DNA of 20,710 nucleotides from a virus. The notes beneath the pieces are model-generated. The model was not told the DNA's origin. It made no database searches and saw nothing but the letters and a program-made list of their open reading frames with translations. Of this stretch, positions 7,600-12,178 are shown piece after piece (position 1 is the first letter of the stretch; every line of letters begins with the position of its first letter). The translations under genes were made by a program, and so were the position numbers. The stretch lies in IMG/VR virus record IMGVR_UViG_3300025138_007091, positions 1 to 20,710 of that record, one strand, 5' to 3'.

Positions 7600-7607
7600 T
7601 ATAAATA
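7600..7607 (+). promoter_or_regulatory. T4-type late promoter before regA
   Basis: TATAAATA in a 54-base intergenic gap. The longer stretch TATAAATACCATT matches the extended T4 late consensus TATAAATACTATT at 12 of 13 positions. Late promoters need only this -10 element and are read by gp55, which is encoded at 1271. It would drive regA and the co-directional genes with capsid-targeting leaders downstream. Confidence 0.8.
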
Positions 7608-7648
7608 CCATTGTCATTAATGAATATAACAAAAAAAGTGAGTTGACA

Positions 7649-8063: not shown

Positions 8064-8624
8064 ATGCAGAGTTTTAAATCACATCTTATCAATGAAAGTG
8101 CGCTTAGTGCATTAAGAACCGCAACGAAAGCACATAGTGGACAGTTTAGAAAAAGTGGGGGAGAATATATTGCTCATCCAAAAGAAGTCGCTAAAATAGT
8201 TGCTAAGTTCAAACCAAAATCAAAAAATTTATCTGCATTAGTTCAAGCGGCATATCTGCATGATACTATAGAAGATACTGATTTATCACATGCTGACTTA
8301 GTAAAGCAATTTGGTGGATTGGTTGCAAATTTAGTAGATCAACTAACCACTAAGAAAGATGATTTAGAAGCAGCAGGTGGTAAGGGTGAGTATATAAAAG
8401 ATAAGATGGTCAACATGACAAGTTGGGCATTAGTTATTAAACTCGCTGATAGACTTGCTAATGTATCTGATATTAAGCAGCAGAAACCAGAATGGCAAAG
8501 AAAATATGCTGGTGATACAAAGTTGGCCCTAGACGCTGTAAAAAAAGATAGGAAACATTTGAGTCCTACACATAAGAAAATTATTAAGAATATAGAAACC
8601 ATAATCGCTCCTTATGTATCATGA
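8064..8624 (+). CDS. Small alarmone hydrolase-type HD protein with capsid-targeting leader
   Basis: A RelA/SpoT-family hydrolase domain without a synthetase domain, like MESH1 and bacterial small alarmone hydrolases. The family removes the 3' pyrophosphate from (p)ppGpp, and some members remove pyrophosphate placed on tRNA CCA ends by toxSAS toxins. All Mn-site and catalytic residues are visible: H24 is in KAHSGQFRKSG, then H38 (AHP), H66-D67 (HDTIEDT), E70, D71, D129 and N133 (KLADRLANVSD). The spacing matches MESH1. The first 11 residues, MQSFKSHLINE, precede the domain and resemble the T4 capsid targeting sequence, with cleavage expected after Glu11. The length is 186 residues. The stop overlaps the next ATG. 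Confidence 0.88.
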   Translation: MQSFKSHLINESALSALRTATKAHSGQFRKSGGEYIAHPKEVAKIVAKFKPKSKNLSALVQAAYLHDTIEDTDLSHADLVKQFGGLVANLVDQLTTKKDDLEAAGGKGEYIKDKMVNMTSWALVIKLADRLANVSDIKQQKPEWQRKYAGDTKLALDAVKKDRKHLSPTHKKIIKNIETIIAPYVS

Positions 8625-8968
8625 AACTTTTTTCTAAATTTATAACAGAAATCACTAAAAATCAACGTAAAAAGAAAGAAGCCTATGCTTTGACATATGT
8701 TCGGCAAGGTAAGATGGGTATTCTAAGGATTAGGCCATTACCAGGCAGCAAGTGGGTTGAAGTACGTGGTAAGGTAGGATTTGAAAATAATTATGATGAA
8801 AATGATTATCTACACAGAACGATGACTCTTATTGGCAAAGGTGTAAACGTATCTGATTTTGTAAATGGTACAGAGGTTGTGCTATATGATAGGGGCGATA
8901 AAGTTGCAAAACTAGCGTTAAGGGCAGTCAGAGCAATCGTAAAATATCCAGACGCACAGCATTGGTAG
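8621..8968 (+). CDS. Unknown 115-residue protein with capsid-targeting leader
   Basis: I do not recognise the body of this protein. The start overlaps the HD hydrolase stop (ATGA). Residues 1-10, MKLFSKFITE, fit the T4-type capsid targeting and gp21 cleavage pattern (I/L-x-E). The rest is basic and beta-rich (AYALTYVRQGKMGILRIRPLPGSKWVEVRGKVGFENN; later MTLIGKGVNVSDFVNGTEVVLYD), suggesting a small barrel, possibly nucleic-acid binding. There is no Cys or membrane segment. Its place between two RNA-processing enzymes with similar leaders suggests it is also virion cargo. Confidence 0.8.
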   Translation: MKLFSKFITEITKNQRKKKEAYALTYVRQGKMGILRIRPLPGSKWVEVRGKVGFENNYDENDYLHRTMTLIGKGVNVSDFVNGTEVVLYDRGDKVAKLALRAVRAIVKYPDAQHW

Positions 8969-8978
8969 GGAATAATAA

Positions 8979-10202
8979 ATGAAAAGTTTTATATCTCATT
9001 TAAATGAAAGTATGTTAGAAAAACTTTTAACTATGAAAGTTAGAAAGTCTATTAAAAACGCTGGTGGTAAAATCTATCAAATTGGTGGTGTGGTTCGTGA
9101 TGAACTACTTGGAAAGGTTTCAAAAGACTTAGACTTAATCGTTGTTGGTGTAGAACTAAGAGACTTAGAAAGTATATTAAAGCCTCATGGTAAAGTGAAT
9201 ATGGTTGGTAAATCTTTTGGTATTCTGAAATTTGTACCAACAGGTTCAACGGAAGAAGAGGATGTTGATATTTCAGTACCAAGAGTTGACTCTAAGAGTA
9301 CTGGTGCTGGTCATAAAGATTTTGAAGTACAGTTAGGAAAAGGTATTACTTTACAACAAGATCAGTTAAGAAGAGATTTTTGGATAAATCAATTGGCTAA
9401 AGATGTTGATACTGGAGAAATTATTGACACTGATGGCAAGGGTATGAAAGATATTAAGAATAAAGAAATTCGTATGATCAGTCCTACTTCATTTGAAGAT
9501 GATCCTTTAAGAATGTTAAGAGCCATTCAATTCGCGGCTAGGTTTGAATTTAAAATTGAAAAAAATACCTTCAAAGAAATGAAAAAACAAGCGCATACTA
9601 TTTCATCAGTTTCTTCTGATAGATTTAATGAGGAATTTAAAAAACTTTTCACCAAATCAAAAAAACCATCAATCGGTGTAAAACTTTTATTTGAAAGTGG
9701 ATTGATAAAGCATCTATTCCCAAAAGCATCTATTAAAGACATTAATTTAAAAGCATTAGATAAACTAGAAACTTTTGATGGGTTTAATAAAAACTATGGT
9801 GCTTTTATAGGAATGGTTCTAATGAGTTATAAGCAAGACGCTGGTAAAATTGCCAAGGCTGGAATGAAATTATCTAATATTGATTCTAAAGCAGTTCAAT
9901 CTGTAACTTCATACAAAGATATGGATTTAGTTAAATTAGTTGGATGGGCTAAAGATAACGATATTAAATCTGTTGATGCTTATCTTACCGCTATAGGAAA
10001 ACCAACAGTATCATCAAAATTAGAAGGTGTTAAATATCTTTCAATTAAAGAACTACCTATAAATGGAAAAGATGTTTCTCAATTGGGATTTAAAGGTAAA
10101 AGTATAGGTGATGCCTTACAATCCGCATTAGATTTTTCTATTAAGACTAATAAAACAAGTAAAAATGATCTTCTTAAATATATAAATAGTAAGAACAAAT
10201 GA
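8979..10202 (+). CDS. CCA-adding/poly(A) polymerase-type tRNA nucleotidyltransferase with capsid-targeting leader
   Basis: A class II nucleotidyltransferase that builds or repairs the CCA 3' end of tRNA, or adds A tails. Motif A is GGVVRDELLGK (36-46) followed by the metal-binding D50-L-D52, with a third acidic strand VDIS near 96-99. RRDFWINQLAKD is at 131-142, EDDPLRMLRAIQFAARF at 173-189, and RFNEEFKKLF follows. The C-terminus keeps the usual ELPINGKDVSQLGFKG turn. The length is 407 residues, full size for the family. Residues 1-10, MKSFISHLNE, are an extra leader ahead of the domain and fit the prohead-protease pattern. CCA versus poly(A) specificity cannot be settled by eye. Confidence 0.9.
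   Translation: MKSFISHLNESMLEKLLTMKVRKSIKNAGGKIYQIGGVVRDELLGKVSKDLDLIVVGVELRDLESILKPHGKVNMVGKSFGILKFVPTGSTEEEDVDISVPRVDSKSTGAGHKDFEVQLGKGITLQQDQLRRDFWINQLAKDVDTGEIIDTDGKGMKDIKNKEIRMISPTSFEDDPLRMLRAIQFAARFEFKIEKNTFKEMKKQAHTISSVSSDRFNEEFKKLFTKSKKPSIGVKLLFESGLIKHLFPKASIKDINLKALDKLETFDGFNKNYGAFIGMVLMSYKQDAGKIAKAGMKLSNIDSKAVQSVTSYKDMDLVKLVGWAKDNDIKSVDAYLTAIGKPTVSSKLEGVKYLSIKELPINGKDVSQLGFKGKSIGDALQSALDFSIKTNKTSKNDLLKYINSKNK
10181..10188 (+). promoter_or_regulatory. T4-type late promoter inside the end of the nucleotidyltransferase gene
   Basis: TATAAATA lies in the last codons of the upstream gene, 28 bases before the start of the cupredoxin-like virion gene at 10217. A strong AGGAG ribosome site (10204-10208) lies between them. 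Confidence 0.7.
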
Positions 10203-10216
10203 TAGGAGACTGAAAC

Positions 10217-10789
10217 ATGGCGTGGGTAAATATTACAAACAATTCTAGTTGGCAATATGACAATGCCCCAGTTGATCCCGGTGCTAATAGTCCATTAAGA
10301 CCTCTATGGTTAAAACAAACTAACGGTATTAGAACTACAAATGGTCATGCTGTGTATACAAGTGTTCGTAAAACCATCGCGACTGCTGGTACTGTTACTT
10401 TTGCTATAACTGTTTCAAATCCCGGTTCTGGAAATAAATACTACATAGACTCTGGTGGTCCAGCCCCAACAGTAAGTTTGATAGAAGGTAGAACATATAA
10501 ATTTGACCAATCACACTCTTCTAACTCAAACCATCCGCTAAAATTCAGTATAACATCCAACGGGATACATGGTGGCGGGAGTGAGTACACAACAGGAGTA
10601 ACAACGTCAGGAACTCCGGGAAGTGCTGGAGCATATACTCAGATAGTTGTTGCAACTTCTGCACCTACCTTATATTATTATTGTACAAACCACAGCAATA
10701 TGGGCGGGACTGCAAACACTCCAGCATCTAGTACGTCTACAGTTTCTATGGGTGAAATTAGTAAAACCTTTTGGGATAATGTATCATGA
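10217..10789 (+). CDS. Virion-type protein with cupredoxin-like copper motif
   Basis: A protein of 190 residues. The N-terminal 60 residues (MAWVNITNNSSWQYDNAP, RPLWLKQTNGIRT) look like those of marine phage structural proteins. The second half is a beta-rich Gly/Ser/Thr domain seen repeatedly in marine T4-like virion and fibre proteins. It holds H106 (SNHPLKF) and the cluster C156-x2-H159-x2-M162 in YYYCTNHSNMGG, the His-Cys-His-Met set of type 1 copper proteins, though the H-M spacing is shorter than in plastocyanin. No signal peptide is seen. Its own late promoter and ribosome site support late structural expression. Copper binding is inference. Confidence 0.8.
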   Translation: MAWVNITNNSSWQYDNAPVDPGANSPLRPLWLKQTNGIRTTNGHAVYTSVRKTIATAGTVTFAITVSNPGSGNKYYIDSGGPAPTVSLIEGRTYKFDQSHSSNSNHPLKFSITSNGIHGGGSEYTTGVTTSGTPGSAGAYTQIVVATSAPTLYYYCTNHSNMGGTANTPASSTSTVSMGEISKTFWDNVS

Positions 10790-11055
10790 TTAAGTTTATA
10801 ACATTTATAACTGATGAGTATCAGAGAGATTACAAAAAAGAACGAAAAAACTATCTTGGTACTCCAGAACAGATGGAAAGAAACGCTGCTAGAAAACGCG
10901 CTAGAAGAAAGATGGAAAAAGAGGGTAAAGCAGAGCCTTTTGATGGAAGAGATATTCATCACAAAGATGGTGATCCACTCAATAATAATCCCAAAAATTT
11001 ATCAAGTGTAACTGTTCATTATAATCGTAAAGAGCCAAGGATGAGAGATAAATGA
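10786..11055 (+). CDS. HNH-like small nuclease with capsid-targeting leader
   Basis: A very basic protein of 89 residues. IHHKDGDPLNNNPKNLSSV (57-75) followed by H78 and N80 (VHYNRK) fits a compact HNH core with the His pair, the Asn-rich turn and a final His/Asn. The stretch before it (ERNAARKRARRKMEKEGKAEPFDGRD) is a basic helix like that of small HNH proteins widespread in T4-like marine phages. The first 11 residues, MIKFITFITDE, resemble the leader of its neighbours, but Asp occupies position 10, so the cleavage pattern is imperfect. The start overlaps the virion gene stop and the stop overlaps the next ATG. Confidence 0.75.
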   Translation: MIKFITFITDEYQRDYKKERKNYLGTPEQMERNAARKRARRKMEKEGKAEPFDGRDIHHKDGDPLNNNPKNLSSVTVHYNRKEPRMRDK

Positions 11056-11453
11056 AAACATTTAAAAATTTTATAACAGAAGATAAATGCGATTTAGTGG
11101 GTATGAAACAAATCAAAGCATTTGAATCCATTGTAGATAAATTGTTCAAAAAGTATGGGATTGATTTTAAATTCACTCGTCATTTTGGTGATAGGATGGG
11201 AGACGATAGGAACAACCCTTGCATTTCTATGAAAGAGTTGGCAGAATTTATAAAAAAGATTTACGCAAGGCAAGGCAAGTCGCTTAAAGGTGTGGCTGGC
11301 GCAGAAGCGGTAATTAAAGATATGCAAACTAATTTAAATATTCCAGTAGCAGTTAAGTATGATCAAAGAAAAGATGAATTTGATGTTGTACTGAAAACGA
11401 TTATGCGTAAAAAAGATTTTAAAACACCAGATAAAATAATAAAATATGCGTAA
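11052..11453 (+). CDS. Unknown protein with capsid-targeting leader, possible BECR-type RNase
   Basis: A protein of 133 residues. MKTFKNFITE (1-10) is nearly the same as the T4 internal protein III leader MKTYQEFIAE. The body carries FTRHFGDRMGDDRN (41-54), GAEAVIKDMQTNLNIPVAVKYDQ and a terminal VVLKTIMRKKDFKTP, a conserved pattern in marine T4-like phages. The order His, Arg, conserved strands and Thr/Lys near the end recalls phage Barnase-EndoU-ColicinE5/D-RelE-like nucleases. That match is weak and I cannot confirm it without a profile search. It closes a three-gene overlapping run from 10217. Confidence 0.8.
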   Translation: MKTFKNFITEDKCDLVGMKQIKAFESIVDKLFKKYGIDFKFTRHFGDRMGDDRNNPCISMKELAEFIKKIYARQGKSLKGVAGAEAVIKDMQTNLNIPVAVKYDQRKDEFDVVLKTIMRKKDFKTPDKIIKYA

Positions 11454-11488: not shown

Positions 11489-12178
11489 ATGAAATACTTT
11501 ATATCAGCACCTTTTGGAAACTATTTAAAACTTCCTAACGCAATTAGCGTAACTGGAAGTTGGACTGTTGAAAAAAGAGAAGGACTTATTCCCCAAATTT
11601 TTAAAACTCTTAGATATAAAAATGGTGGATGGATTAATAAAATTGGATTACGAAATGCAGGAATATATGAGGGTTTAAAAAGAACAAACTCTACAGATGT
11701 GTTGAGCCTTGCCGCAATAGACGAATATGATTGGATAAATTTAGACCGCATAGTAGGTAAAAATTTGTCTGTTGAAATTAATATAAGTTGTCCAAACCTT
11801 GATAAAGATGTAGGAGCGGTTAATCTGCGCGGCTTTGATTTATTTCCTAAAAATAATAGAGAATGGTGCATATGTAAAATACCGCCTACTGCGACAGAAT
11901 ATCTCATAGACAAGATAGTAGATTTGGGGTATAATCAAATACATGCAAGCAACACTTTGTACTCTTTAAATGGGGGTCAAAGTGGAACAATTTTAAAACC
12001 ATATACTACAAGGATTATAGAATATATAAAGAGAAAACATCCCAGTGTCACTATAATCGCTGGTGGTGGGGTTACAAATAAGGATGATGCAGAATTTTAT
12101 TTTGATAAGGGCGCAGACTATGTAAGTCTAGGAACAGTATGTTTTACACCTTGGAAAATAAAAAGCATAATTTCTTAA
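11489..12178 (+). CDS. Short dihydroorotate dehydrogenase-like flavoprotein
   Basis: A TIM-barrel protein of 229 residues resembling class 1/2 dihydroorotate dehydrogenase, the pyrimidine enzyme that oxidises dihydroorotate to orotate with FMN. It shows NKIGLRNAGI, VEINISCPN (95-103), KIPP (130-133), HASNT (152-156), GGQSG (162-166) before LKPYTT, IIAGGGV (189-195) and YVSLGT (211-216), the FMN and phosphate-binding turns in the usual order. It is about 80 residues shorter than cellular PyrD, mainly before and between barrel strands, so it may be a reduced enzyme or use another substrate. The start has only a weak ribosome site. A T8 run follows the stop. Confidence 0.8.
   Translation: MKYFISAPFGNYLKLPNAISVTGSWTVEKREGLIPQIFKTLRYKNGGWINKIGLRNAGIYEGLKRTNSTDVLSLAAIDEYDWINLDRIVGKNLSVEINISCPNLDKDVGAVNLRGFDLFPKNNREWCICKIPPTATEYLIDKIVDLGYNQIHASNTLYSLNGGQSGTILKPYTTRIIEYIKRKHPSVTIIAGGGVTNKDDAEFYFDKGADYVSLGTVCFTPWKIKSIIS

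Follow-up and report, generated by a model that had tools for sequence, protein, structure and literature searches.

The virus record IMGVR_UViG_3300025138_007091, analysed here over 20,710 bases (the window), is a fragment of a T4-like marine myovirus. Between regA and the DNA polymerase gene 43 it carries a 3.4-kb cluster in which five unrelated proteins begin with a common leader of 10-11 residues. The first-pass annotation of this DNA, made from its letters alone, had taken these leaders for T4-type capsid targeting sequences, and its gene calls stand: the five open reading frames (ORFs) lie on the plus strand, as do their leaders, the sixth gene of the interval and the two promoter boxes described below, and start with ATG at 8064, 8621, 8979, 10786 and 11052 with the N-termini it reported. 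Its reading of the putative cut site I/L-x-E in four of the five leaders stands as well, with I8-T9-E10 in the proteins at 8621 and 11052, L8-N9-E10 in that at 8979 and I9-N10-E11 in that at 8064, where the site ends at residue 11, one later than residue 10 of the other three; the leader at 10786 reads F-I-T-D-E, as had also been said. Left out was a sixth gene within the interval, 10217..10789, whose product of 190 amino acids (aa) has no leader and is tail-fibre/baseplate-like by PHROGs (the best match is a family of unknown function, 6.5e-24, followed by tail families from 5.6e-19).

The first leader, MQSFKSHLINE (8064..8096, from the ORF and its relatives), belongs to a 186-aa HD protein (8064..8624; Pfam HD_4, 1.6e-15) resembling small alarmone hydrolases. 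Its matches among PDB chains are RelA/SpoT HD domains, MESH1, a (p)ppApp hydrolase and small alarmone hydrolases; the HD motifs RKSG..Y..HP, HDT.EDT and KLADRL are visible in phmmer alignments to RelA HD domains, and Pfam HD_4 and HD score above cut-off with no synthetase family. From its sequence the protein could hydrolyse (p)ppGpp/(p)ppApp or tRNA-CCA-PP. The 115-aa ORF that follows (8621..8968; leader MKLFSKFITE, 8621..8650) matched nothing in Pfam, PHROGs or NCBIfam, and its AlphaFold2 model (pLDDT 72) gave no useful fold match. The third protein (8979..10202, 407 aa; leader MKSFISHLNE, 8979..9008, again from the ORF and its relatives) is a class II, CCA-adding type, tRNA nucleotidyltransferase (Pfam PolyA_pol, 1.1e-17, and PolyA_pol_RNAbd, 1.2e-15; PHROG tRNA nucleotidyltransferase, 1.8e-56) whose PDB matches are CCA-adding enzymes and poly(A) polymerases; its NCBIfam scores lie under every listed cut-off, and CCA addition, as distinct from A-only or poly(A) addition, is a prediction. 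Next comes a small HNH-motif protein (10786..11055, 89 aa; Pfam HNH_3, 1.1e-7), the cut site of whose leader MIKFITFITDE (10786..10818, read from the ORF) is degenerate; more distant HNH relatives have the canonical leaders MKSFIEYIGE, MKTFKAYISE and MKTFKAYLCE. The last (11052..11453, 133 aa; leader MKTFKNFITE, 11052..11081), in which homology to phiM12-type phages starts at residue 10, may have a RelE/HigB-like fold behind its leader: for its AlphaFold2 model (pLDDT 89.6), toxin-antitoxin entries fill 14 of the 15 highest VIA-align rows, with a best Z of 6.5 over 75 residues (below 8) and, by Foldseek alone, E of at least 0.24. PADLOC returned no matches for the five leader proteins. Downstream of the cluster, a short (229 aa) dihydroorotate-dehydrogenase-like protein (11489-12178) is leaderless.

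Two patterns were used to count leaders. The broad one was drawn to fit the five window leaders and is partly circular; because of that fitting, a T4-only pattern was written from the leaders of T4 IPII and IPIII alone, as read in AF158101 (MKTYQEFIAE). The broad pattern matches 5 of the 32 called genes of the window; across 80 regA loci it matches 4 of 1,366 genes, and among internal methionines 14 of 12,439. The T4-only pattern finds the leaders at 8621 and 11052, that is, two of the five against all five for the broadened form. Within a T4 segment (44 called genes) the T4-only pattern picks out IPII and IPIII only, IPI escaping it with a start of MKTFKEF and STITE further on, and in 80 loci fetched with the 11052 protein it matches 29 of 1,307 genes. 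That five leader genes of 32 should all fall inside six consecutive genes has a probability of 0.0007. C48C1 has four broad-pattern matches among 226 called genes (148 of 156 kb), one of them probably due to chance, so that the rich leader cluster is lineage-specific. A motif search of the kind proposed by the first-pass annotation found the leader on many unrelated families: 247 leader proteins from 195 viral loci, the window and C48C1 form 31 clusters of mature parts (E 1e-3; some singletons may be chance matches), and after weighting by family Lys stands at position 2 in 56% and Phe at position 4 in 95%, the pattern itself restricting position 4 to F/Y/L.

Published virion proteomes, cited here and below from the accessible parts of the reports, allow the leader to be compared with packaging in other phages. 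For S-CREM2 (OR473000), in which 218 of 219 annotated coding sequences were read and the broad pattern was fixed before the proteome test, mass spectrometry detected 51 of 218 proteins overall and 4 of the 5 that match the pattern (Fisher p = 0.011; PMC10665884, Table 3): a SAM hydrolase, ORF13, an APH/ChoK-like kinase and a cytidylyltransferase. ORF136, whose start MQTFSMFFSE lies just outside the broad pattern, was also detected. Gene counts came from a simple gene caller that misplaced at least one start (S-CREM2 ORF14, annotated with GTG), so we scanned all frames and every start codon of S-CREM2, S-SM1 and S-SCSM1 with the T4-only pattern. Its five occurrences all coincide with annotated gene starts: the SAM hydrolase, kinase (GTG start) and cytidylyltransferase of S-CREM2, the S-SM1 cytidylyltransferase (MKKFSAFLNE) and the S-SCSM1 NMNAT (MKSFLQFLKE). 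All five proteins are reported in virions (PMC10665884; PMC3037559; PMC9602691 and its GenBank note). Separately, S-CREM2 ORF12 (L246:7704-10313, minus strand), a virion-detected Cas9-like nuclease, has the leader-like LRFASFMAEAA at residues 17-27, set back from its annotated start.

In T4 the capsid targeting sequence and its trimming by gp21 are established (PMC3012670; PMC9958956). The first-pass annotation had named a missing gp21-type protease as evidence against its reading, and the reading passed this check: no such S77 protease was found within the 20.7-kb window itself, but Peptidase_S77 is present in contigs that share part of the window at 93-96% identity. It was found in 18 of the 23 records searched, the five misses showing nothing because those records, perhaps fragments, may stop before reaching the gene. 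The head operon of these relatives runs from a 64-aa protein (MKTFKELKENLLIEK) through gp21 (MKLIAEYCDGALDLITEAKEN) and gp22 to gp23 (..GFGQLTEAAPANN). In the near-identical contigs gp21 reads ..LDLITEAKE and gp23 ..GFGQLTEAAP, and by analogy with T4 these I/L-x-E sites, of the same kind as those of the leaders, are putative cut sites. The small gene directly before gp21 (L217:2297-2491, with relatives in L214-L222) encodes 64-67 aa and starts with MKTFKELKENLLIEK or a close variant; its product, leader-like with a later possible cut site, is perhaps a prohead core protein.

That protein also bears on an alternative in which the leader is a packaging signal and the cargo is merely a head-core component, retained or degraded, without any role after injection. 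Its similar start so close to gp21 would suit this alternative, as would the fate of T4 gp22, gp67 and gp68, which are packaged and then degraded (PMC9958956). The window proteins, however, have bodies that belong to enzyme families and that come and go between relatives as cassettes, and in T4 the proteins IPI and Alt do their work after injection or on the polymerase of the host (PMC3012670; PMC9958956), so that we regard a purely structural cargo as improbable.

The variation of the leader among relatives speaks to a second alternative, that the shared N-termini are a feature of translation initiation or of the DNA, or are recombination scars, and target nothing. The starts are AT-rich and resemble each other as DNA, and in L096 a short ORF links the opening codons of the nucleotidyltransferase with its tail. 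Yet the residue pattern is kept though codons differ, and residues outside the pattern are free to vary. Among homologues of the 8621 protein the free leader positions 2, 3, 5 and 6 are hypervariable, with an average of 4.75 distinct residues per position as against 1.40 at pattern positions and 1.31 in the body, and the codons of the pattern positions differ while the residues stay, which argues that selection acts on the peptide. Virion detection moreover tracks the pattern in three other phages, and we consider this second alternative very unlikely. Chance likeness of short N-termini we judge close to negligible: although the five leaders were selected visually and then served to fit the broad pattern, the T4-only pattern occurs in 2 of 32 window genes and in none of 15,690 internal methionines, 1,366 regA-locus genes or 216 called genes of T5 (100 kb) and N4 (50 kb), parts of phages without gp21, whose low match rate disfavours chance.

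Homologues of the 11052 and HNH proteins also occur as internal domains of long ORFs of up to 1,269 codons, some of which add cytidylyltransferase-like, kinase and other cargo-type segments, and we infer that they represent a fused version of the same cargo, which is processed in the head. One such ORF, of 1,265 aa (L141:7961-11758), combines kinase, 11052-type and other cargo-type domains and repeats FEMFLEE, FEAYLNE, FEAFITEE, FESYLEE and FESFLEDE along its length. [ILVM]-x-E stands immediately before the kinase cargo domain (AAA_33/Zeta_toxin match in L138) in all eight distinct contexts that fit the signature of this domain; three of the contexts are canonical leaders, one is a very short N-terminus (MNILE) and four are of other kinds. 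Across 29 dereplicated long ORFs, motif A occurs 33 times compared with 5.5 +/- 2.5 in shuffles (246 control proteins, 83 versus 74 +/- 9), and motif B 15 times compared with 4.2 +/- 2.0, the controls for motif B also exceeding their shuffles (88 versus 59 +/- 7). A looser site is found at 20 of 86 distinct contexts, an uncontrolled count.

The surroundings of the cluster carry a sequence motif that may mean late expression. In the window regA, the hsp20 gene and gene 43 were identified by search, the last matching C48C1 best (57%; Kyanoviridae) and then marine Synechococcus phages; the genes ahead of regA we take to be uvsW, 55, 47, 46, 45, 44 and 62, from the same order in C48C1. A T4-type late promoter box, TATAAATA, lies in the gap before regA (7600..7607), ahead of the leader cluster. 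Where the HD leader gene comes next, every distinct region upstream of regA has this box (11 of 11); where it does not, 2 of 61 have it (L171 and L178, in which homologues of 8621 and 8979 come next). Counted by type of cluster, all 13 distinct window-type regions carry the box, against 0 of the 59 others (12 more being too short to class), although the window-type relatives are closely related and these occurrences are not independent events. A second TATAAATA box (10181..10188), which falls within the 3' end of the gene for the nucleotidyltransferase and ahead of the gene at 10217, occurs in 7 of 9 distinct upstream regions and is retained in L084/L085, where 8621 and 8979 are missing. The box was absent before genes 43, 44, 45, 46 and 47 (0/64, 0/11, 0/61, 0/42 and 0/33, respectively). 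Three further observations concern the same region. Among window-type relatives, the stretch from the first box to regA (7610-7648; CCATTGTCAT...AATGAATATAAC...GTGAGTTG) looks strongly conserved. The slot right after regA is filled, in phages that lack the window-type cluster, by another leader-like gene (L012:10405-10968 and L035:3295-4041), in one of the two a P-loop kinase. In L096 (about 8243-8287), a 14-codon ORF, MKSFILKHINSKNK, joins the start of the nucleotidyltransferase leader to the enzyme tail, with the late box kept.

Taken together, these data suggest that the leaders are T4-type capsid targeting sequences and that the enzymes are made late, packaged, cut by gp21 and delivered with the DNA, most likely to protect translation, a reading to which we assign a probability of roughly 0.83. 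The capsid-targeting interpretation of the first-pass annotation thus gains support from gp21 in near-identical contigs, from the leader on many families and from leader proteins in the virions of other phages. Since five unrelated proteins bear the same tag, the phage probably packs enzymes into its head, a tRNA-repair enzyme for example, for delivery along with the DNA. In this reading, gp55-type promoter boxes would drive synthesis of the five proteins late in infection, the N-terminal leader would dock them on the gp22 scaffolding core, and gp21 would cut after I/L-x-E inside the prohead; the mature enzymes would then remain alongside the DNA and reach the next host together with it. Such cargo would be a swappable effector set, able to act ahead of any phage gene expression. 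The alarmone-hydrolase-like protein could strip the pyrophosphate put on tRNA 3'-CCA ends by toxSAS defence toxins, and the nucleotidyltransferase could rebuild damaged CCA ends. Given these identities, a tRNA 3'-end rescue kit is an attractive idea, and as a working hypothesis the likeliest role of the window set is to protect translation in this way.

Several points weigh against this reading. Packaging is read from the virions of other phages, and the HNH leader has no I/L-x-E. The fifth broad-pattern ORF of S-CREM2 (55 aa) went undetected, and the other broad-pattern match of S-SM1, a ferrochelatase, adds nothing to the tally either way. The annotated cytidylyltransferase of S-PM2 has a leaderless start and, as far as the accessible text goes, is encoded and was not detected in virions, a contrast that is weak because the same older proteome also missed gp5 and gp21 (PMC3037559). 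The authors of the S-CREM2 and S-SCSM1 studies allow that their enzymes might be unseparated material left after caesium chloride purification (PMC10665884; PMC9602691). Strict leader copies stand at 2 of 54 extrapolated polyprotein junctions, compared with 0.96% of random windows, so that the majority of junctions lack this form. The late box also precedes hsp20 in 25 of 70 cases, it is lacking in L012 and L035 (among the 59 above) where a leader-like gene directly follows regA, and it occurs three times in the whole window as against 4.27 expected, a count that, not being above chance, is no evidence, so that position and conservation alone count. Finally, the HD gene is found in all 18 contigs complete from regA to hsp20 or 43 (the window counted), and in 6 of them homologues of 8621 and 8979 are jointly absent, leaving HD without the CCA-type enzyme; in the incomplete contigs L171 and L178 the 8621 and 8979 homologues stand next to regA without HD. 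The HD and nucleotidyltransferase genes are not obligate partners.

A wider proposal is tentative, and we think it rather doubtful in its full extent: that marine T4-like phages share a general, modular system of capsid loading, with one leader, dozens of exchangeable enzymes and, in some lineages, head-processed polyproteins bearing their own leader-like gp21 sites, and that the window kit includes a pre-loaded tRNA 3'-CCA rescue pair that counters abortive infection, for example by toxSAS, before phage expression. With the leader come a rule that can be read in sequence and a mechanism, and genomes, those of uncultured marine phages among them, could then be used to predict packaged effectors. 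The idea that phages deliver counter-defence enzymes ready-made at time zero becomes open to test, and proteins as large as a kinase-like one of 755 aa serve as natural examples of what a T4-type leader may load. Within the literature searched (most subscription papers being outside its reach), the T4 capsid targeting sequence was not linked to marine phage enzymes, and the S-SM1, S-SCSM1 and S-CREM2 virion papers were not among the matches for the phrase 'capsid targeting sequence'. Cyanophage proteomics on virion NMNAT/cytidylyltransferase, kinase and SAM hydrolase had left the choice between cargo and contamination undecided (PMC10665884; PMC9602691). Natural marine-phage enzyme cargo of this type, the rule connecting leader and virion enzyme, and the fused form are, as far as these searches show, new.

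Among known systems, T4 IPII and IPIII are like the window proteins in their leader of about ten residues, M-K-x-F/Y-x-x-F-I/L-x-E, in their unrelated bodies and in the S77 prohead protease, found here in near-identical contigs. Unlike them, the window cargo includes enzyme families (alarmone hydrolase type, CCA-adding type, HNH) and is clustered between regA and gene 43, and its leaders also show His at position 7 and an 11-residue spacing. The T4 ADP-ribosyltransferase Alt is an enzyme packaged in the core and trimmed N-terminally by gp21 (PMC9958956); the likeness drawn here is one of packaging and trimming, and the window enzymes come from other families. The ejection proteins and prohead protease of SPN3US and phiKZ-type phages, a different group, are comparable by description, with many packaged, protease-trimmed proteins. 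The window HD protein is 33.8% identical over 80% to an annotated hydrolase/synthetase gene of Salmonella phage SSU5, which, from the phage and the annotation, we infer to be the small alarmone hydrolase PaSpo; PaSpo takes away the tRNA modification made by FaRel2 and thereby counteracts it (PMC11559606), and the likeness drawn here is one of HD protein sequence. Further parallels are the cytidylyltransferase/NMNAT, SAM hydrolase and APH/ChoK-like kinase of S-SM1, S-SCSM1 and S-CREM2, which differ from the window cargo in family, carry the same leader and are reported in purified virions.

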